From: Methylomagnum ishizawai
GTDB taxonomy: Bacteria; Pseudomonadota; Gammaproteobacteria; Methylococcales; Methylomonadaceae
Assembly: GCA_945861705.1 (NCBI GenBank)
Contig: CAMAVM010000003.1
Coordinates: 1-64,000 of the forward strand
DNA length: 64,000 nucleotides
Direction of reading: 5' to 3'
This document shows, in pieces, positions 7,291 to 63,425 of this stretch. The first letter of the stretch is position 1, and every line of letters begins with the position of its first letter. Under the pieces are notes generated by a model. The model searched no databases. It was not told the DNA's origin and worked only from the letters and a program-made list of their open reading frames with translations. The position numbers were made by a program, and so were the translations under genes.

Positions 7291-9454
7291 GATTTACCTC
7301 TTTTACAATAAACCGTGCTAACTCTGTGCTGATGATATCTAGTTCATTTTTCCCTGTTTGCTTACCTGTCGCGTCATAACCTATGTCTTCGGCAATTGCC
7401 ATAAAAATGGGGTAGTCAGACAAGGCACTTTGTTTTTTGAGTATATAGGCTTCTTCCAAGCGCTCTTTCAGTTCGTTGATTTGCTCGGTGTATTCGGTGC
7501 TTTTCTCGGTTTTCCATGCTTTATAAGCATCGGTTTTTTTAAAGGCGGCTGTGTTGCCTTCATAGTTTGCGCCAATCGCTTGGTCAAGGATTGTTTTCTT
7601 TTCTTTCTCGATGCGGGCTACTTCTTGGCTGTAGCTGTTCTCAGTCAATAAGTCGGCTTGCAAGCTGAGTTTTTGCTGTTGCAAGGCGTGGGTTTTATCC
7701 GCGCTGTATTTACGCAAAAACAACACGCTGCTTTTTACTCCTGCACCCGTGGCAGTAAAAGCCGTTTGCGGCAAACTGACCACGGCGACAATGCGGCACC
7801 AGTCTTCAATTTGGTCACGTACGTATTGCAAACTGCTGTTGGTGAGTACGCCGTCGGGGATGACTATCGCCAGATAGCCGCCTGCGTTTAAGAATTGATG
7901 GCATTGTTCGATAAACAACACCTCTGTACTTTGGGTGTCACGGTTTTTAACGCCGCTGTTTTTAAGGTCTAACCAAGAGGTGTCTCTTTGCCCAAAAGTA
8001 TAGGTATCTAAATAAGCTTTTTCGGTGAGTTTAACCGCGCTGCCAAACGGCGGATTGGTGATGATGAAGTCAAAACGCCCGTATTTAAAGCCGTTGTTTT
8101 TGGACAGTTCTTGCAGTTTGGTGTCTTTGAGTAAGCCGTCAGCACTAATAACGTTGGTATGTCCATCGTCATGAATAATCATATTCATCTTGGCTGCGCG
8201 GCTGATTTGTTCGTTGATTTCTATGCCGTATAAGCGTTTTTCGGCGAAGTCGTGCCAATGTTGCCAATGTTCTTTGCTTTCTGGGTCGTAAAATTCGTTG
8301 GCTTCGCGGCGGACTTTTTCCAGGGCGTGCAACAAAAATCCGCCACTGCCACAGGAGGTATCCAAGACCAGTGATTCATGGGTAATCGGCAACACATCAA
8401 CAATGAATTTTACAATTGGGCGCGGGGTAAAATATTGCCCAAAGCTGCCGCGAAAGAATGAATCCATGAAGGTTTCAAACGCGCGGCCCTTGCTGTCTAA
8501 ATCGGTTTTGTTCAGGTTGATGTCTTGCAGGTATTCAACAATGGTACGCACCCGTTCGTGGGTAAGGCGGATATTATCGCGGAACACTTCGGGGTCTTTT
8601 TTTCGGCCTTCTTCGTAGAGTGCATTAATGCGGATGAATAAGGCTTCGTTGGTTTTTCTTAACGCATCGCGTTGTTTTTCTTCCTCATTTGAACCCTTGC
8701 CTTCTTCTTGGATAACTTGAAAATCGTAGGCTTCGCCCTGTTTACGGGCTTTCCGTTCATCCCATATTTTACAAAAAATGAGCTTATCCAATTCATCAAA
8801 GGCTTCTGATGGGTTGAGTTGACCGCCAGCCCATAACGCATTGTGTGCTTGCTTAAAGCGGCGGGTCAGTTCGTCCTCAGCGACAACTTGTAAGTCGAAA
8901 AATTTTTGCTCACCTTCTTTATGTTTCAGTTTGTCCGCAGCTTTAACAAACTTATAAGGGGCCAATTTATCCACGCCGTAGGGCGGAATATCAGACTCCG
9001 GTTTACGGGTGTTTTTACTTTTATCAACTTGAAAATAATCGTTTTTAATCTTGGATGTTACCCAAACCCATTTGACATTATTGGGTAAGGCAAAAGCGTA
9101 TGAATAGGCTTGATTAATTGATTGGGCGAATTCAGCTTCAGAAACTTCTTGTTGTTTACATTCCACCAAAATATGTGGTTCTAAACAGTCATCATCGTTA
9201 TAAACGACAATATCTGCTTCTTTTTTACCCGACCCCATCGTCACCATAACAAAATTTTGTACACGGTGTTTGGGATAACCATATTCGAGGATTAAGCGGC
9301 AGTAAGCTTCGGACTGCACTTGTTCTTCTGGGTTACTGTATAAGCGGCTTTTCTTTTGCTCGACGTATTCGATACGCTTGCCGTCATCCAGGAGTTTAAT
9401 TAATCCCTTTTCGATGCCTAGCTGGATGTAGTCAATGGCTTGGTTTTCGTTCAT
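7277..9454 (-). CDS. Nuclease-methyltransferase fusion subunit of a restriction-modification system
   Basis: A 725-residue fusion. Residues ~40-130 resemble the HsdR N-terminal nuclease: D81 in KEADIVVY and the ILVECK segment give a D...ExK set (E98, K100). Residues ~200-630 are an HsdM-type N6-adenine methylase with SAM motif LDTSCGSGG (~360) and catalytic NPPF (~466). The C-terminal ~90 residues are helical. There is no helicase/translocase domain and no hsdR gene nearby. The layout (nuclease and methylase in one chain, specificity in a second) is like BcgI-type type IIB or type IIG enzymes, not classical type I. The closest relative cannot be settled by eye. Confidence 0.85.
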   Translation of the reverse strand: MNENQAIDYIQLGIEKGLIKLLDDGKRIEYVEQKKSRLYSNPEEQVQSEAYCRLILEYGYPKHRVQNFVMVTMGSGKKEADIVVYNDDDCLEPHILVECKQQEVSEAEFAQSINQAYSYAFALPNNVKWVWVTSKIKNDYFQVDKSKNTRKPESDIPPYGVDKLAPYKFVKAADKLKHKEGEQKFFDLQVVAEDELTRRFKQAHNALWAGGQLNPSEAFDELDKLIFCKIWDERKARKQGEAYDFQVIQEEGKGSNEEEKQRDALRKTNEALFIRINALYEEGRKKDPEVFRDNIRLTHERVRTIVEYLQDINLNKTDLDSKGRAFETFMDSFFRGSFGQYFTPRPIVKFIVDVLPITHESLVLDTSCGSGGFLLHALEKVRREANEFYDPESKEHWQHWHDFAEKRLYGIEINEQISRAAKMNMIIHDDGHTNVISADGLLKDTKLQELSKNNGFKYGRFDFIITNPPFGSAVKLTEKAYLDTYTFGQRDTSWLDLKNSGVKNRDTQSTEVLFIEQCHQFLNAGGYLAIVIPDGVLTNSSLQYVRDQIEDWCRIVAVVSLPQTAFTATGAGVKSSVLFLRKYSADKTHALQQQKLSLQADLLTENSYSQEVARIEKEKKTILDQAIGANYEGNTAAFKKTDAYKAWKTEKSTEYTEQINELKERLEEAYILKKQSALSDYPIFMAIAEDIGYDATGKQTGKNELDIISTELARFIVKEVNRESI

Positions 9455-9469
9455 TTATTGTCTTGATGA

Positions 9470-9547
9470 GGTGTGCTGACACACCATTGCGTTGTTTTCG
9501 ATTTTGAAATTTGATGTATCAACACTTTTATAGACACAAAGTTGTGT
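9470..9547. promoter_or_regulatory. Two inverted repeats upstream of the restriction-modification operon
   Basis: GGTGTG-CTGA-CACACC (9470-9485) lies about 15 bases upstream of the methylase-nuclease ATG and could act as an operator or as an mRNA hairpin at the ribosome-binding site. ACACAA-AG-TTGTGT (9534-9547) lies further upstream in the expected promoter zone. No controller (C) gene is adjacent, so any binding protein is unknown. Confidence 0.4.
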
Positions 9548-9638
9548 TGATTTTAGCAGTATTTCGCTGTCTATGAACCAATGGAGCGGACTCGATTGAT
9601 TTATTCGTAGCAATCAACCCATTTATTATTTTAGTTCG

Positions 9639-9700
9639 ATAGGATACGCTGAAAGAAGTGAAGCGCATCATTCGCGGTCGATGCGTCTCGTACCAGAGCC
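9639..9700. repeat. Degenerate GTAGGATGCGCTGA-type dispersed repeat
   Basis: The stretch GATAGGATACGCTGAAAG followed by GAAGCGCATCATTCGCGG and TCGATGCGTCTCGTACC matches a small palindromic repeat common in gammaproteobacterial genomes (arms of the type GTAGGATGCGCTGA with a central GCATC...GATGC). The rest of the 420-base gap 9455-9876 is AT-rich and shows no gene I can support. Confidence 0.5.
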
Positions 9701-9876
9701 GATCAAACTGGCAAAGGTGGTTTTTTCAGGAAACTTTTGAAACATTTTTTTGGTTGTGTTTAGCGACCAAATCAAAGAACGGTTAAAATTATCAACCTTA
9801 CCCTGACATTGATGAAGGCAAAAAATGAGTTTTAAAAGCAGTTTAGTAAAAAATTGCAATTAATTGGACACCCAAA

Positions 9877-10233
9877 ATGATGGTCTTATGGGTGGCGAAT
9901 ATGGTGTTCAAGGGCATTGCAGCATTAACCGACTATAGTTTCGACCCCGACGAGCGCAAAGCTTACGTTCAAACGACGCTTTACGGTGAAGCAGAAGCCA
10001 TTGAGGTTTGGCTGGATGGTTTTGCCATCATTAGCGATGGTGAATCAAACAAATTCATCATTCAACAAGTACAATCGAACAAACCCTGGTTGAATAATAT
10101 ATTCGCCCATATTGCCGGAAAAGCGTGGAAAATTCCTGTGATACCGCAGTTGACGGCTCATATTGAGCTAATCGCCGAGCTTCTAAAAGCCGAAAACCCA
10201 GCACAGGAAGATAAAGAACAGGAAGCTATTTAA
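9877..10233 (+). CDS. Hypothetical protein
   Basis: A 118-residue protein with no motif I recognise. It has a mixed beta/alpha look (TTLYGEAEAIEVWLDGFAII), no signal peptide, and a charged C-terminus ending ENPAQEDKEQEAI. In-frame ATGs at 9877, 9880 and 9901 leave the exact start open. It is followed by a palindromic terminator and a convergent fae-like gene. Codon use looks like that of its neighbours. It may be a lineage-specific protein. Confidence 0.55.
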   Translation: MMVLWVANMVFKGIAALTDYSFDPDERKAYVQTTLYGEAEAIEVWLDGFAIISDGESNKFIIQQVQSNKPWLNNIFAHIAGKAWKIPVIPQLTAHIELIAELLKAENPAQEDKEQEAI

Positions 10234-10302
10234 TTGAGGTTGTCCTGCTTAGGCTGAGTGTTTTCCGTCTGAATCTTTTAACCTAAAATTTGGCTAGGGC
10301 GA

Positions 10303-10323
10303 AAGCCCCACTAGTGGGGTTTT
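10303..10323. terminator. Bidirectional terminator between the hypothetical gene and fae-like gene
   Basis: The palindrome CCCCACTAGTGGGG (10306-10319) is flanked by an A-run and a T-run, giving a stem plus T-tract on both strands. It lies between convergent genes and would end both transcripts. Confidence 0.75.
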
Positions 10324-10333
10324 GCACTTGTAT

Positions 10334-10882
10334 CTAAATTTTACCGTCCAGACCCATCTGGAAATATTTATGAGTAATCATATCCTGGTTTTCCAGTAGC
10401 CAATCGATATCTGGTTGGTTATTCATCGCTTTGTGGATGGCGGTTGCCATGGCTTTGCGGTGAATATCGAATAGGATTTTATGATCCAACGCATCGTCGG
10501 TCACTACGCTGGGGTTCAGCCACACAGAGACGATGATGCCTAAATCGTTGGCTTTGTCTTTGGGAATATCACCCGCACGTACTGCATCCAAAACGCCATT
10601 GGCGATAGCGGCTTGTACCGTACCCATTAAGATGTTGGTGTAACGGGTATTTTTGACGGTGACTTTACTGACCATCAACGTCACTGGCCTGACCTGGATG
10701 TCGGTGTTCAAAATGGCAAACACGCGGGTATGGCCTTGGACTTGTCCAGCGGTCATGCTGGCAATTGCTGTGCCGACAGGGCCGTCAAGTTCGCCGATAA
10801 TGACTTCCGGTTCGGCTGCTGTGCCGGGCGGGCCGCCAGCGACTAAGGCTTCCCCAGTACGCATAATGATTCTTTCGCTCAT
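10334..10882 (-). CDS. Formaldehyde-activating enzyme (Fae) homologue, divergent
   Basis: A 182-residue Fae-fold protein. Family features are TGEALVAGG near the start, VIIGELDGPVG, VRPVTLMVSKVTVKN, and the C-terminal DHKILFDIHRKAMATAIHKA helix. Fae joins formaldehyde to tetrahydromethanopterin. In the Methylobacterium enzyme the segment VAHIDLIIG carries the catalytic His22. Here the aligned segment is AAEPEVIIG, with glutamate 24 in place of the histidine. The protein is therefore probably a Fae paralogue (the group called Fae2/Fae3 or Fae-like) and may not catalyse the reaction. It stands alone with a leader of ~150 bases. Confidence 0.85.
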   Translation of the reverse strand: MSERIIMRTGEALVAGGPPGTAAEPEVIIGELDGPVGTAIASMTAGQVQGHTRVFAILNTDIQVRPVTLMVSKVTVKNTRYTNILMGTVQAAIANGVLDAVRAGDIPKDKANDLGIIVSVWLNPSVVTDDALDHKILFDIHRKAMATAIHKAMNNQPDIDWLLENQDMITHKYFQMGLDGKI

Positions 10883-13350: not shown

Positions 13351-13496
13351 TTAAGGAATTTCTGAATAAGTTGATTGCGTTCATGGTTCGACAGGCCCAC
13401 CACGAACGCAATCAACCCGTTACCGTTCGTCCTGAGCCTGTCGAAGGAAGCCTGTCGAAGGAAGCCTGTTGAAGAACTTAATCAGAAATTCCTTAA
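13351..13496. repeat. Nested inverted-repeat element between tolC and a lipoprotein gene
   Basis: The ends TTAAGGAATTTCTGA(A/T)TAAGTT (13351-13372) and its reverse complement (13475-13496) match at 21 of 22 positions, forming long arms. Inside are a VRPEPVEG-type unit (CGTTCGTCCTGAGCCTGTCG near 13424) and a 14-base tandem array, GCCTGTCGAAGGAA at 13436, 13450 and, with changes, 13464. It occupies the divergent promoter region, so it may affect tolC expression or act as a transcript hairpin. Confidence 0.75.
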
Positions 13497-58186: not shown

Positions 58187-58678
58187 GCTATTTGGGATCT
58201 TAAAAATTTGGTCATGCTGCACAAATTGCGGTTGATCGGGTGGCGGTTCGGCTTTAATGAGTTTAATCAAGTCTCGTTTGGCAAACAGGTTAAGTGCCAA
58301 CAAGCGGATGATTTGTTGCAACGAAGCTTCGACTTGATTGCAAAATTTGAGGTAGGCTAGCAGTAAATAGACGCACACGGCAAAACCCAAATTTGGGTCA
58401 TACCCAAAGGGCATAAATCACCGCATTTTGGCTGATTCCTAGTTAACGATTTGATCTTGAGGTTTTGCTTGATCCATTTGAAGAACAACTCGTCGTTGCC
58501 AACGTTGCTTGTAGATGTCTGCGACAGTCTGCGCCGACAGCTTGAAATGGTTGGTGATGAAAGTGCATTCCTTTTTTGTCCCAGCATCGAAATAGACCAC
58601 TTGCCTAACATCGGGCAGTTTCCTTTGATTCGGAATGATAAAAGCAACACCAATCTTACGGTGCGTCTTCAATCTCAT
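58187..58678 (-). mobile_element. IS4-type transposase remnant (frameshifted C-terminal part)
   Basis: Three minus-strand frames carry successive parts of one DDE transposase C-terminus: ECTFITNHFKLSAQTVADIY then KQRWQ, next ELFFKWIKQNLKIKSL, next AVCVYLLLAYLKF and NLFAKRDLIKLI. YKQRWQ.ELFFKWIKQNLK is the YREK-type region with the last catalytic glutamate in IS4-family elements. The N-terminal two-thirds is missing and at least two frameshifts are present. The remnant begins right at the pxmC stop codon. No terminal repeats were identified. Confidence 0.85.
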
Positions 58679-59429
58679 CCAGCAATTCTATCATACGAGT
58701 TGTACCCTGCAATAGAATGCCGCCGACCCCCAACGCAAACCAAACCCCAATCACAAATCCCCAATGGATCGGCGCGGCAAAAAATTCTTCCCTAAACCAG
58801 AACGTATGCCCCCATTCATTGAAGCCGACACTGACCAGGATCATGAATGGCCCGAATACTGCCAGTGTTAATGGCAGTGAAATACCCTTGGCATACAGCG
58901 GTAGCCTTGTCCTGGCATATAACCAGGCGCAACCGCCTAATATAATATAGAGCGGAAAATTGAAATAAAACTCGATGATGTGATTGGCGGTGAACGGCGT
59001 ATCGCGGATGGCGACCTGATGCCAGGAATTGTCCTGCTCGGCGAAATAACTGCCCGCCCAATAGACGGCAAAGGTGTAGATGCTGATCCACATGGTCAGG
59101 GTAAAATATCGGCGGATTTCCTCCTTCGGTTCAAGCGTGTCCAGATTCTTATCCCTGGAAAACCATAAATATCCCCAAAATCCACTTGCGATGAGTACAT
59201 CAAGCACTAATTCAATGTAAAACAGCCGCATCCAGTAGATTTCAAATACCGGTTCGGTGGAATCCAGGCCTGTTGAAACGGCAAATGCGCCTTGGTAGAT
59301 ACGTAGTCCCATATAGATGACGGTTAGAACCGCGAAGCCTGCCAAATACCGGGGTAAATCTTTCAAATACCAGGGCGGCATTTTCTTGTCTTCTACTAAT
59401 ACTGCCGTGTGTTCGCGTGTTGTAGCCAT
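58656..59429 (-). CDS. pxmC: Copper membrane monooxygenase subunit PxmC
   Basis: A 257-residue PmoC homologue with about six helices. The metal site known from PmoC (Asp-x3-His...His) is conserved as D133 and H137 in EQDNSWH and H150 in FTANHIIEFY, with the 4- and 13-residue spacing. LDSTEPVFEIYWM and GFNEWGHTFWFREE are family signatures. It is the last gene of pxmABC, 25 bases after pxmB. The C-terminus EIEDAP is short compared with canonical PmoC. Its stop lies where a transposase remnant begins, but the protein seems complete. Confidence 0.93.
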   Translation of the reverse strand: MATTREHTAVLVEDKKMPPWYLKDLPRYLAGFAVLTVIYMGLRIYQGAFAVSTGLDSTEPVFEIYWMRLFYIELVLDVLIASGFWGYLWFSRDKNLDTLEPKEEIRRYFTLTMWISIYTFAVYWAGSYFAEQDNSWHQVAIRDTPFTANHIIEFYFNFPLYIILGGCAWLYARTRLPLYAKGISLPLTLAVFGPFMILVSVGFNEWGHTFWFREEFFAAPIHWGFVIGVWFALGVGGILLQGTTRMIELLDEIEDAP

Positions 59430-59454
59430 GATATTATCCTCTTGAGATTGTGAG

Positions 59455-60867
59455 CTAATTGAATTTGGGGATCACTGCGGCAGTCAGGCTTGAGATATAA
59501 CGCTCACCTGTACCGTCGTAGAAAAACAGCAAGCCACCAATTCGGCTGTCGGCATCGTTAATCAGCCCGTCCAGTCGTTCGGATTCCCATAACGCATCTT
59601 TGGCGGCAATCGTCATAGTGCGCTGTTCGCCAGGTTGGATAGGGGCGGCATTGTCCACGCTTAAACCTTCAGAAGAGGTCATGCTTTCTGAACTGCCTAG
59701 CTCCGGTTTTGGCACATCCTTGTTGAAAAAACGTACATTTCCGGTAGCAAACTCGCCTATTTGTATCGGCTTGTCACTGCCATTCTTGATTTTTAGGGTA
59801 AAAGTCATGGTTCGCTCCGGTACACGGTATTCGGCCTTTACTGTTTCGACATTAACTACTCCGGCATTTACCTGGGCAGGGAGCGGCAGAATTTGGTCTA
59901 GCGAAGCCTGCAAAGGAATCGCTTTCGGATATTTGCTGGCTGTCATTGAATAAGCTGCAAACACCAGTAAAGGCACACCGATCAGCATAGCTTTACCGAT
60001 TTTTCTGTCGAATGGGGTAATCAGCTCATCTTCCATTCCTGCTTGCAGCATTCGATAACGGGCAATAAATAAAGGCCGACGTACCCACCAGAGCAGCCAA
60101 GCCGTTGCTAGTACAGCCCAGAAACTGTGCCAAAATATGCCGTTGCCTAGGCCATAAGTTTCCATATTGACCATCTCGCCGTTGATGGTTTGGATGTCAT
60201 TGGTAAAATCCGCTGCATCTCCGGCAATATCCAGCCATACACCAGGCCCCATCACTTGACCCGTATCTTTCAGGTTAAAGAAGGGGTGGATGTGGTAATG
60301 ACCCGGCAGGCGTCCTTTCAGTACGACCTTGAAGTTGTAATCGCCGCCTGGTTGCAACGCCACCGAATTCATGTAGGGTTTATCGTTCAAATAGCGTTCA
60401 GTTCGAATCAGGACTGGGCCAGGTGTGGATATATTCAAAAACGCCGCTTCAGGTTTGGGTACGCTGGCAGGCCAATCTTCAGCCACATGAAATTTTCCGC
60501 TGACGTTGATTTCTTCGTTGACATTAAATTTTTGCTTTGACCATTGCACGTCGTACCATTGGATCGTACGCATTCGGATGAATGGCTCCAAGGCTTTTTC
60601 CCCATGTGCCATTACGGGTTGCATTGTAAGCATGTACACCGAGAAGATTAAGCCTAGAAGTATTATGCACTTTAGGGGAGTCTGGTGATGTCCTTCGACA
60701 GGCTCAGGACGAACGGTAGTAATATTATTCCTTCCGTAATAATCCTTTTGACCGTTCTCAGGAGAGCCTAGTTGAATCCGTTCGTACCCTCTGGGGCATA
60801 AATGGTGAGCTAGTCGAACCATGGACGGATTCAACTTGTAATGAGATCCCTTTATTAATGTTTTCAT
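59455..60867 (-). CDS. pxmB: Copper membrane monooxygenase subunit PxmB with repeat-extended leader
   Basis: A 470-residue PmoB homologue. The three histidines of the PmoB copper site are present: H88 (at the predicted mature N-terminus, MAHGEK) and H192/H194 (GHYHIHPF). The spacing of 104 and 106 is the same as in M. capsulatus PmoB (33, 137, 139). Two cupredoxin domains flank two helices (~250-310). The leader is odd: 87 residues before the mature start against ~32 in canonical PmoB, and the extra ~55 include TVRPEPVEG from a dispersed repeat. The ATG at 60867 has a perfect AAAGGAGGG site and is 14 bases from pxmA. No other in-frame start retains a signal peptide. Confidence 0.92.
   Translation of the reverse strand: MKTLIKGSHYKLNPSMVRLAHHLCPRGYERIQLGSPENGQKDYYGRNNITTVRPEPVEGHHQTPLKCIILLGLIFSVYMLTMQPVMAHGEKALEPFIRMRTIQWYDVQWSKQKFNVNEEINVSGKFHVAEDWPASVPKPEAAFLNISTPGPVLIRTERYLNDKPYMNSVALQPGGDYNFKVVLKGRLPGHYHIHPFFNLKDTGQVMGPGVWLDIAGDAADFTNDIQTINGEMVNMETYGLGNGIFWHSFWAVLATAWLLWWVRRPLFIARYRMLQAGMEDELITPFDRKIGKAMLIGVPLLVFAAYSMTASKYPKAIPLQASLDQILPLPAQVNAGVVNVETVKAEYRVPERTMTFTLKIKNGSDKPIQIGEFATGNVRFFNKDVPKPELGSSESMTSSEGLSVDNAAPIQPGEQRTMTIAAKDALWESERLDGLINDADSRIGGLLFFYDGTGERYISSLTAAVIPKFN
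60690..60835. repeat. Dispersed repeat inside the pxmB signal-peptide region
   Basis: It contains CCTTCGACAGGCTCAGGACG followed by AACGG, a GTTCTCAGGAGAGCC block, and a terminal hairpin with 11-base arms GTTGAATCCGT (60771-60781) and ACGGATTCAAC (60825-60835). Blocks recur at 2166-2245, 13376-13470 and 63353-63425. In pxmB it is in frame and gives the VRPEPVEG peptide. The exact ends are uncertain. Confidence 0.8.
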
Positions 60868-60881
60868 AATTCAGCCCTCCT

Positions 60882-61634
60882 TTAAATGTTGCTAAGGTAA
60901 CGTGTTGTTGCAAACCACTTGCCGATATACCACCACAAGGTATACATCAGCGTGCATAACAAGGCGGAGCAGAATGCCGATAATGGCGTTGCAATTTGGC
61001 CGTAAGTCCGTAATGTCCCGCGCTCGATAATCCTTAGATATTCTGGCATCCCAGTACGAATGTATTGGAAGCCGAACAAGTCCGCCAAAGTCAACTGACC
61101 ATTGCCAGCTTCGACAGGCACATGAAACATGGCGAAGATCGGCCAGTTAGCAGGGTAGAACAGCAGTGCAAACATGGAACCCCCGAATATTGCGGTAATC
61201 GTCAAGCTGTTGCTTAACATCAGGATAGCATCCAGGACTAGCGCACTCGGCAGCATGGTAGAAGGCAGCACCATATTGATGGGAAAATAATTCCAATAGT
61301 GATAAGCGAAGATTCGGGCTATCCAAGTGCCTATCGACAAGGCGGCGACACACAAGGTAGCACCCAGTGGCAGACGAAATTTCCCCCATAAGACGGCCTG
61401 CACTGCCGCCGGAAACGTAATACCCATCAACGGCGTAACCAACGGCCACCATTGCCTGTCCTTCCAGTCCACCCAGAAATCCCAATCGCCGACCGTAAGG
61501 GCAAAATGCAGATGGAAGGAACCGATAAACAGGAATAGCGCCAATACCAGGATAAGATAATCATAAGCGCGGCTGATCCGGGCTTTTTCTCCGGTATAAG
61601 GTTTAAACGTTTGAGTTGAAAGATTTGCTGACAT
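60882..61634 (-). CDS. pxmA: Copper membrane monooxygenase subunit PxmA
   Basis: A 250-residue PmoA homologue with the start at the ATG 61634 (GGGAG site before it). The open frame to 61916 lacks family similarity and is rejected. Seven hydrophobic segments are present. GDWDFWVDWKDRQWWPLVTP and WPIFAMFHVPVEAGNGQLTL are signatures close to the classic PmoA primer sites. It is first in the order A-B-C, which separates pxm from pmoCAB. PxmABC is reported to be induced under low oxygen or denitrifying conditions in some methanotrophs, and its substrate is not settled. Confidence 0.93.
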   Translation of the reverse strand: MSANLSTQTFKPYTGEKARISRAYDYLILVLALFLFIGSFHLHFALTVGDWDFWVDWKDRQWWPLVTPLMGITFPAAVQAVLWGKFRLPLGATLCVAALSIGTWIARIFAYHYWNYFPINMVLPSTMLPSALVLDAILMLSNSLTITAIFGGSMFALLFYPANWPIFAMFHVPVEAGNGQLTLADLFGFQYIRTGMPEYLRIIERGTLRTYGQIATPLSAFCSALLCTLMYTLWWYIGKWFATTRYLSNI

Positions 61635-61826
61635 ATTGTTTCTCCCAAAGATAACATTGAATAAGTGGGGTATTCTTATCCAGAATAGTGAGTGTCTATG
61701 ACACGCTTGAGCGATACAATAGGTCGAAATAGAGGTTTTGTTAAATGTATAAGTTTCATGTAGCCATTGACGCAATTCATAGTCAATAAAGCCATAGCTA
61801 GTTACTTTAGTGTTAGGATAAAAAAT

Positions 61827-62309
61827 ATGCGGTGGAGCAAACTCAAAAAAACTGTTGAGGACACTTTCGCGGAAAGTGTTCGAGGTCGAATCCATGTATT
61901 TAGTACACGCTATCAATGTTCATGCGGAAGAGCATGGATTACGGTAAATGGTAAAGAGTTGGTCGATCTCTCAACGATGCTTTCGCGTCTTATATATCGT
62001 TGTTATTATCATGAAGCAACAAATACGAATTGCCTCACTCACCCCGCAGTCAAAGACGAAGATCGAACACCAGGCAATCTTGTTGAACGTGGTGAATTCT
62101 CAAGATTTGATTTTCATGAGGCGTGTTGGAATTATATTCATTCGAACCTAAATGAATCCCTTAGTAGCAATAATCCTCTCATCGTCGCTCTTGCTGTACT
62201 GAATGGCAAAGTTGGGAAACAAAAATTGAACAAAATGCTGGCTGGTGATTTGCACCCATTGCCAAAAAAACTAATTGAAATTCGGATAGATGCAGAAAAG
62301 ATTGATTAG
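61827..62309 (+). CDS. SF0329-like conserved protein
   Basis: About 160 residues from the ATG at 61827. The start RWSKLKKTVEDTFAESVRGR followed by YQCSCGRAWITVNGKEL and the C-terminal LHPLPKKLIEIRI fits the conserved proteins labelled SF0329-like (memory-based, moderate certainty). No motif gives a function. It is divergent from pxmA with a 190-base gap and lies upstream of a LysR gene. AT-rich codon use suggests acquisition. Confidence 0.6.
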   Translation: MRWSKLKKTVEDTFAESVRGRIHVFSTRYQCSCGRAWITVNGKELVDLSTMLSRLIYRCYYHEATNTNCLTHPAVKDEDRTPGNLVERGEFSRFDFHEACWNYIHSNLNESLSSNNPLIVALAVLNGKVGKQKLNKMLAGDLHPLPKKLIEIRIDAEKID

Positions 62310-62403
62310 GATTATGTGGTGTTTGGTAGGTTCTTAGCCAAGTCGAACCCAGTTTGCTTTCCGTAAAATCGCTTACTTCTAACTAAAATTAAGCAATTCT
62401 CTG

Positions 62404-63330
62404 ATGTCCAATCTAAGAACCTTCGATTTGAACCTGCTGGTGGCATTTGACGTGCTGATGCGGGAATTGAACGTGACCCGCGCTGCGGAACAGATGTTCG
62501 TCACGCAATCGGCGATGAGCCATATCCTGCATCGGTTGCGGCAACAACTGGATGATCCGTTGCTGGTGAAAACCCCGACTGGCATGAAGCCGACAGAACG
62601 GGCGCTGGCTTTGATTGAGCCAGTCAGGGCATTATTGACAGAGATGGAGCAACTCATTCAGCCGCCTTTGGAATTTGAAGCCAGCACCAGCCAGCGGCGT
62701 TTTGTCTTAGCTGCCACTGATTATCTGGAATTCTTGCTAATACCCGCATTGACGGGGGCTATCGACCAGATCGCGCCCAGCATTGATCTTCATGTCAAGC
62801 GCACCGAAGCCGCATTTCCGGTCACGCAATTGGAAAACGGTAGCCTTGATGTCGTATTGGGTTTCGGGTCGGTTTTGAATCCTCCCACCCATTTGCGCTG
62901 CCAAACCTTATTTGATGACGAAATGGTGTGTGTCGTCAGGCAAAATCATCCCCTCATTCGCACCGCACCCTCACTGGAAGACTACATCGCCGTCCCGCAC
63001 ATGCTGATCTCCTGGAAAGGCACTCCGGCGGGGATCATCGACCAACACTTGCAGGAGATGGGGCTGGAGCGGCGGATCAAGCTGATCGTCCCCAACTTCC
63101 TGTCCGCACCGTTGATCGTCGCCCAAACGGATATGGTTTTGTCCTTGCCATATAAACTGGCTAAACGGTTTACGAAATTCGTGCCGCTGGAAATATTTCC
63201 CGTACCTATCCAACTTCCGGCTTACGATTTGGTCATGATCTGGCATCCTTTACATGACAAAGACCCCGCCCATCAGTGGCTACGAGATAAAATTGTGGCG
63301 ATAGGGCAAGATATTGATGGCATTTATTGA
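62404..63330 (+). CDS. LysR-family transcriptional regulator
   Basis: A 308-residue protein. The N-terminal winged helix (DLNLLVAFDVLMRELNVTRA, FVTQSAMSHILHRLRQQLDD) is followed by a LysR substrate domain (~95-300) with DVVLGFG and SLPYKLAKRF. The start LRTFDLNLLV and the SHILHRLR recognition helix resemble the NodD/PcpR-like group. It does not abut pxmA, and its target is unknown. Confidence 0.9.
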   Translation: MSNLRTFDLNLLVAFDVLMRELNVTRAAEQMFVTQSAMSHILHRLRQQLDDPLLVKTPTGMKPTERALALIEPVRALLTEMEQLIQPPLEFEASTSQRRFVLAATDYLEFLLIPALTGAIDQIAPSIDLHVKRTEAAFPVTQLENGSLDVVLGFGSVLNPPTHLRCQTLFDDEMVCVVRQNHPLIRTAPSLEDYIAVPHMLISWKGTPAGIIDQHLQEMGLERRIKLIVPNFLSAPLIVAQTDMVLSLPYKLAKRFTKFVPLEIFPVPIQLPAYDLVMIWHPLHDKDPAHQWLRDKIVAIGQDIDGIY

Positions 63331-63352
63331 TTCGACCTTTTAATGTTTAAAC

Positions 63353-63425
63353 CGTTCGTACTGAGCTTGTCGAAGCACATACGCCTTTCGACTGGCTTTT
63401 ATGCCCTTTGGGTACAAGGCGAACG
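63353..63425. repeat. VRPEPVEG-type dispersed repeat after the LysR gene
   Basis: CCGTTCGTACTGAGCTTGTCGAAG is followed by TTTCGACTGGCTTTTATGCC and TTTGGGTACAAGGCGAACGG. The second half is the reverse complement, with changes, of the 60782-60818 block (GTTCGTACC...GGGCATAAA...TAGTCGAA). It forms a large imperfect hairpin between convergent genes. Confidence 0.6.

Follow-up and report, generated by a model that had tools for sequence, protein, structure and literature searches.

An in-frame REP-like repeat insert in the predicted signal peptide of a PxmB copper monooxygenase subunit

The pxm operon and the leader of PxmB

The window analyzed here, a 64,000-nucleotide stretch of Methylomagnum ishizawai contig CAMAVM010000003.1, harbors on its minus strand a pxmA-pxmB-pxmC operon in which all three genes are open. 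The product of pxmA (60882..61637) has 251 aa beginning with MSANLSTQ, the start of the ORF being placed by similarity to locus L014, and its stop codon (60882-60884) is separated by 14 nt from the ATG of pxmB. The pxmB ORF (59455-60867) encodes 470 aa from this ATG, and pxmC (58656..59429) is an open ORF of 257 aa. PxmB matches the Pfam Monooxygenase_B profile (PF04744) over residues 89-469 (3.8e-165) and scores above the cut-off of the AmoB and CH4/NH3 monooxygenase B models of NCBIfam (NF041640 and TIGR03079). Excerpts from the literature describe pxm as an operon without known function, with transcripts that increase in denitrifying Methylomonas denitrificans and, in Methylomicrobium album, with nitrite and hypoxia (PMC4594100).

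An earlier note on this DNA had placed the mature N-terminus of PxmB at H88, and the comparison with known structures bears this out. Residue 88 aligns with the first residue of five of the 11 PDB matches (11ll_Aa, 9pxf_A, 9cl6_A, 7s4m_A and 3chx_A), and H88, H192 and H194, which we take to be the copper ligands, are invariant across 11 aligned PxmB proteins. Since the PDB chains begin at query residue 88 and H88 is invariant, the leader comprises 87 residues, and the mature protein, preceded by QPVMA, maps to 59458..60606 on the minus strand. The full-length PF04744 match, the three histidines and the operon order are those of the PxmB subunit of pxmABC copper monooxygenases, but the leader differs from those of other PxmB proteins, which span about 28 or about 50 residues. 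A structure model of PxmB (mean pLDDT of 59, with residues 1-64 below 50) was too poor for use.

By simple measures, the leader presents the features of a Sec signal peptide: an n-region with a net charge of +5, a hydrophobic core (CIILLGLIFSVYMLT, residues 67-81, 60625..60669 on the minus strand) with a mean Kyte-Doolittle value of 2.46 over 15 residues, and the AXA-like site QPVMA. Both core and cleavage site are similar to those of relatives. As the earlier note had reported, a ribosome-binding site and an ATG lie upstream of the repeat that occupies much of this leader. The GGAGGG site (60875..60880, minus strand) ends 7 nt upstream of the ATG (60865..60867, minus strand); a similar site, GGAGGACTGAGTTATGAAAAC, is found in the related genome G002, and an identical one in L031, a second insert-bearing pxmB sequence from Methyloglobulus sp. 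WB-IL-21.

The same note had recognized the peptide TVRPEPVEG as the in-frame translation of a dispersed repeat, and the genome agrees: the 23-mer underlying this peptide (residues 51-59) occurs at 43 places in the own genome (G000) at up to 3 mismatches, and its reversed control at none. The repeat content of the leader proved larger than that peptide, amounting to a repeat pair with a nested repeat. From the resemblance of its ends to those of other elements, the insert spans approximately 180 nt, equivalent to 60 codons (about codons 6-65; about 60673..60852, minus strand), and sits between MKTLI and K-C of the leader. Its components, all on the minus strand, are a REP1 palindrome with a 12-bp outer stem (60771..60835), delimited by comparison and folding and split by 18 nested nucleotides; a degenerate inverted copy of the REP2 core (60752..60769); and REP2 itself (60694..60716), the source of most of TVRPEPVEG. 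The remaining G000 copies have the rough layout AAGGAATCTCTGAACAAG-REP-REP-CTTAATCAGAGATTCCTT, and the pxmB insert carries both ends in diverged form, matching a consensus made by eye from those copies at 22 of 27 nt on the left and 11 of 19 on the right, the latter a value reached by 0.23% of shuffles. Without the 60 repeat residues the leader would measure 27 residues, versus 28 in most short-leader PxmB. Among the matches listed for the 141-nt insert, with up to 40 candidates scored per genome, the only full-length ones at 89% identity or above are the two pxmB sites, and the next best, both in G002, cover positions 8-138 at 75% and 24-138 at 77%.

The nested 18 nt (60785..60802, minus strand) lie in frame within REP1, code for LCPRGY and have no counterpart in L031. 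They form a micro-palindrome, TACCC..GGGCATAAA on the plus strand, belonging to a TACCC(2-5 nt)GGGCATAA type that is abundant in three related genomes, where G001, G006 and G007 hold 56, 50 and 24 of them, respectively (controls 2, 2 and 0), and rare in three others, with five copies in G000 (control 3), four in G005 (control 3) and one in G003 (control 2). Three of the five G000 copies fall in the window, where shuffling expects 0.01, and all three lie around the pxm operon: the nested one, one downstream of pxmC (58401..58416, plus strand) and one beside a REP copy (63399..63414, minus strand).

The reading frames point to translation of the insert. Only one of its six frames is open, that of pxmB, and the remaining five hold between 2 and 8 stops. 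The ATG, GTG and TTG codons of the leader occupy positions 1, 12, 16, 77, 79, 82 and 86, with ATG1, TTG12 and ATG16 ahead of the core, GTG77 and ATG79 inside it, and no ATG, GTG or TTG between codons 16 and 77. Because of this gap, any PxmB bearing the signal peptide has to contain codons 16-65 as a minimum, and the codon positions support the view that a standard start bypassing the repeat would lose the signal peptide. The earlier claim that no other start preserves it thus stands for starts that bypass the repeat, but not for TTG12 and ATG16, which lie inside the insert and would also keep the core. Between the repeat and GTG77 the window holds only ATA and ATC as possible non-standard starts; L031 presents an ATG at its own codon 67, bordering the core.

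In the predicted RNA fold, the insert forms two hairpins, one from the REP1 palindrome and another from REP2 paired with its degenerate inverted copy (z-scores against shuffles of -2.24 and -3.36), and the 30 nt from the ATG onwards are mostly unpaired, with a mean pairing probability of 0.29 in the window and 0.49 in L031. The same prediction, made on the isolated 5' RNA, pairs GGAG of the ribosome-binding site with CUCC at the right end of the insert (around 60677-60680; probability 0.72-0.95), and in L031 GGG of this site is predicted to pair just past the right end of the insert (0.85-0.97). Unless it is opened by translation of pxmA, such pairing could make initiation less efficient and so lower expression. 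No described structured RNA was detected at gathering thresholds in 58500-62500.

Relatives, a second carrier and selection on pxmB

We searched 61 genomes including the own genome, of which 55 match PxmB or PmoB. Contigs of Methyloglobulus morosus KoM1 and Methyloglobulus sp. WB-IL-21 are among those of the same genus, which suggests that the window genome belongs to Methyloglobulus. On a tree of 40 mature proteins, with PmoB as the outermost rows, the window protein and L031 are joined (100/99), and their sister is an 11-row clade with leaders of approximately 49-53 residues that lack the repeat. Elsewhere on the tree, leaders measure about 24-32 residues wherever the start could be read; starts were judged by eye, and those of L014 and L062 were unreadable. 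Long leaders without the repeat, which the earlier note had named as grounds for rejecting its reading, therefore do exist in relatives, but they constitute a different extension. The notion that they are decayed REPs was discarded, as each of the 11 leaders, aligned locally to the repeat, scores within the range of its 200 shuffles. Leaders with and without the insert do coexist among relatives: across 237 family genomes, the repeat leader is present in two of 53 PxmB-like rows (E ≤1.6e-69; at least one row, from G172, is truncated where its contig ends), found in G000 and G006. The pxmB of G002 has a short-type start in a context similar to that of the window gene, with an N gap directly after it.

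L031 carries the insert in pxmB at the same place and in frame. Two indels separate its leader from that of the window, the 18 nt extra in the window and a 12-nt duplication in L031, and beyond the block that is identical in both sequences L031 retains a diverged element end that matches the consensus at 13 of 19 positions, as do 0.03% of shuffles. Its contig begins 18 nt upstream of the pxmB ATG, its pxmC has a +1 frameshift that alters the C-terminus, and its bin, with 5% contamination, includes a second pxmA-pxmB start, whose long leader lacks the repeat. Because pxmC is frameshifted and the bin holds this repeat-free start, the L031 copy of pxmB may be a relic or derive from another organism. 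The two pxm operon ends of this bin (G006), one with a repeat leader and a frameshifted pxmC and the other with the long repeat-free leader, are covered by L144 (G006:C367) and L215 (G006:C195).

The mature part of pxmB differs between the window and L031 at 90 of 1149 nt, with a dS of 0.315 and a dN of 0.026 over 383 codons (ratio 0.082). Polarized with 11 outgroups, the changed codons divide 29 to 8 (synonymous to nonsynonymous) along the window branch and 25 to 8 along that of L031, with 11 unassigned. Judged by these substitutions, purifying selection acted on mature pxmB along each of the two branches (dN/dS of 0.08), a pattern that speaks for a protein in use after the insertion. The insert itself differs at 1 of 138 aligned nt, where the nested piece borders on the rest. 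Stretches of this length taken from the mature gene show 4 to 17 differences (mean 10.6; Poisson P of one or fewer, 2.9e-4), and the 27 codons directly past the insert differ at 21 of 81 nt. Simple descent does not account for this identity; recombination, a chimeric contig end or constraint at the nucleotide level could each yield a near-identical insert.

The repeat family and its copies in other genes

Like REP/BIME repeats, the element is a short palindrome with many dispersed copies and stems in predicted folds. Opposite-facing REP pairs occur at several loci (for instance L108, L110, L115 and L117), and the motif is present at up to 2 mismatches in all 10 relatives searched for it. Within the window, exact copies of the 23-mer lie at 13423-13445 and 60694-60716, the former inside a second REP pair of the same family (13351..13448), and a copy with 2 mismatches is found at 63352..63374 on the minus strand. 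Eight Y1_Tnp matches were identified in G000, none of them a repeat-flanked tyrosine transposase, with the closest REP about 4 kb away, and for this reason we call the element REP-like. On the coding strand, the sequence of REP2 is CGTCCTGAGC. Excerpts from Di Nocera et al. 2013 describe CGTC REPs as having a CGTC tag, a stem of 8-9 bp and a CCA tail without a link to a transposase, which was not seen for the pxmB element either, and restrict the arrangement of a transposase flanked by the repeat to GTAG REPs (PMC3733652). The pxmB element also behaves as a protein-coding palindrome, with an open frame that is read in phase in pxmB, in ribD and in a TonB-dependent receptor fragment of G000. 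Open-licence papers yielded no name for the peptide strings PEPVEG, RPEPVEG or VLSLSK.

At one site, ribD harbors a single REP of this family in G000, G001 and G003, a REP pair in G006 and G007, and none in G002 and G005, so that five of the seven aligned genus members carry a REP, in stop-free frames (G000:C1:123752-124876, covered by L126 and L147, and L208-L212 and L214; L213 of G004 stands outside the alignment). In the TonB-dependent receptor fragment (G000:C43, near 9400-10391; L113 and L146; Plug domain, 1.4e-20), which is cut by the contig end, a REP pair lies directly ahead of an apparent signal peptide recognized by eye. The frame of this leader is also open in G006:C303 (L201), with a further 72 nt and a C-homopolymer difference at the start; the G006 receptor is probably broken further on, as it is matched in two frames.

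A comparison of REP sites between G000 (34 stretches and the window, covering all 43 matches) and G006 (40 stretches and L215, covering 58 of 60 matches, with those on C445 and C457 set aside) found only ribD, the receptor and pxmB to be shared by matches above approximately 200 nt, all of them in coding frames; the associated figure of 1.7e-4 is post hoc and carries no weight as proof. Conservation at the nucleotide level as a general trait of the family found no support, since the shared ribD and receptor copies, compared by eye, have differences of their own. Further REP-bearing candidates, among 30 loci of which three are from G000, include peroxidase-like, membrane and cupredoxin-like ORFs named by eye. 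In one of them, a cupredoxin-like ORF of G003 (L105, 1409-2287, minus strand), the REP, read in the second open frame that the element offers, precedes what may be a signal peptide; in another, a 681-residue peroxidase-like ORF that is open where the locus ends (L082, also G003, minus strand), a REP lies in frame around residue 502.

Origin and fate of the insert

We consider it likely that a REP pair inserted into pxmB, is translated as a long n-region, and leaves PxmB to be exported and cleaved normally. Under this reading, a non-autonomous REP pair of approximately 162 nt would have entered the gene just past the start codon, between MKTLI and K-C of an ordinary leader some 27 residues long, prior to the split of the window lineage from L031. 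With an insert length that is a multiple of three and an open frame, the ribosome would start at the old ATG and translate the repeat, giving PxmB a long, positively charged n-region followed by a hydrophobic core and a VMA cleavage site of the usual kind; exported by Sec and cut ahead of H88, the protein would then be a normal copper subunit. The 18-nt micro-palindrome would have entered the REP of the window lineage later, again in frame. We infer the origin by transposition, translation from the ATG at 60867, Sec export, and an insert that is tolerated rather than useful.

In favor of this reading count the 43 copies versus none in the control, the presence of both element ends, the 27-residue remainder, the start context resembling G002, the sole open frame, the 18- and 12-nt indels, the purifying selection on mature pxmB and the absence of a start between codons 16 and 77. 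The in-frame REPs of ribD add to the case. Counting against it are the restriction of the insert to two of 53 rows, the contamination of the L031 bin, the start of its contig and its frameshifted pxmC, together with the near-identity of the inserts, the predicted pairing of the ribosome-binding site and the poor structure model.

The earlier note had left two outcomes, a working long leader or an operon on its way to inactivation. That the insert disabled expression or export, with the open frame reflecting only a recent event, appears unlikely. The frameshifted pxmC of L031, the young-looking inserts and the predicted pairing of the ribosome-binding site with the right end of the insert would fit such decay, but pxmA, pxmB and pxmC of the window are all open, the codon changes on the window branch indicate that selection went on, and the element end outside the identical block has diverged in both sequences, so that the insertion is probably not new. 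A working leader is hence favored for the window, because L031 shares the in-frame insert and mature pxmB appears to be under purifying selection; inactivation is unsupported there but possible for L031. More improbable still is a repeat that remains untranslated as mRNA structure, with initiation at a downstream non-standard codon or within the core. Di Nocera et al. can be cited in its favor (PMC3733652), as can the ATG at codon 67 of L031, yet the window offers only ATA and ATC ahead of GTG77, the ribosome-binding site and ATG common to relatives lie upstream of the repeat, both leader indels keep the frame and the pxmB frame alone is free of stops.

Two further readings concern the sequences themselves. 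The insert of L031 might be a chimeric contig end or a recent recombinant from a window-like strain, leaving one true carrier lineage. The jump from 1 of 138 to 21 of 81 differing nucleotides on crossing the right border of the insert, the contig start just upstream and the second pxm start in the bin point in this direction, but L031 lacks the 18-nt piece, has a 12-nt duplication of its own and preserves the diverged element end past the identical block. We regard this account as doubtful though worth bearing in mind; it concerns the age of the insert and can be reconciled with its translation as a long n-region. REPs are repetitive and the genome is a 52-contig assembly, which could invite an assembly artefact in the window, but the identical insertion place in a separate assembly record (L031) and the confinement of full-length matches to the two pxmB sites among the matches listed make this extremely improbable. 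A bolder proposal, to which we attach little credence, holds that Methyloglobulus REP pairs are a recurrent source of n-regions (in PxmB, the TonB-dependent receptor and possibly the cupredoxin-like protein), and that the pxmB element combines an mRNA structure able to close the ribosome-binding site with an n-region for slow export; selection at the nucleotide level would then account for the near-identity between the two lineages. On the sequence evidence, translation of the insert, and its toleration as an unusually long n-region, is the likeliest outcome.

In-frame insertions of repeats into bacterial genes have already been published, as intragenic REPs and as Rickettsia RPEs. In the available portions of PMC3733652, GTAG and CGTC REPs resemble the pxmB element in being short palindromes, often in opposite-facing pairs, and mostly intergenic; those inside ORFs, reported from several species, are partly in frame and more frequent at amino-terminal than at C-terminal ends. 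CGTC REPs and the pxmB family also share a lack of nearby transposase genes. The same excerpts attribute most amino-terminal cases to misannotated starts, whereas in pxmB no standard start that bypasses the repeat keeps the signal peptide, and the frame is kept in L031; a definition of REPs as elements that seldom overlap coding regions is given in excerpts from PMC12306157. RPEs, described by Ogata et al. (2000, 2002) as cited in PMC10969869 and PMC3733652, are palindromes of approximately 150 nt with an open frame, found in frame in unrelated genes and, like the pxmB insert, common to related species; R. conorii proteins with an amino-terminal RPE-1 are reported as expressed in vivo (PMC3733652). 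The pxmB element, likened to RPEs by description and not by sequence, differs in its host and in that most of its copies lie outside recognized genes. Excerpts from PMC5422565 ascribe extended signal peptides to TpsA and autotransporter proteins, with slowed export and delayed cleavage in FhaB. By description, the pxmB leader shares with them an N-terminal extension before a Sec signal peptide, but theirs are semi-conserved and that of pxmB is repeat DNA read as protein. Among the open-licence matches listed, no paper dealt with REPs in signal peptides or in pxmB.

Export of PxmB by means of its signal peptide would require that an amino-terminal REP be translated, and pxmB would then test whether "extragenic" palindromes provide protein sequence, as well as the extent to which the Sec n-region can be lengthened in a natural copper enzyme. 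The case also speaks against default trimming of starts at REP-bearing genes. The ribD series, with empty, single-REP and paired states at one site, supplies several in-frame states from a single genus.
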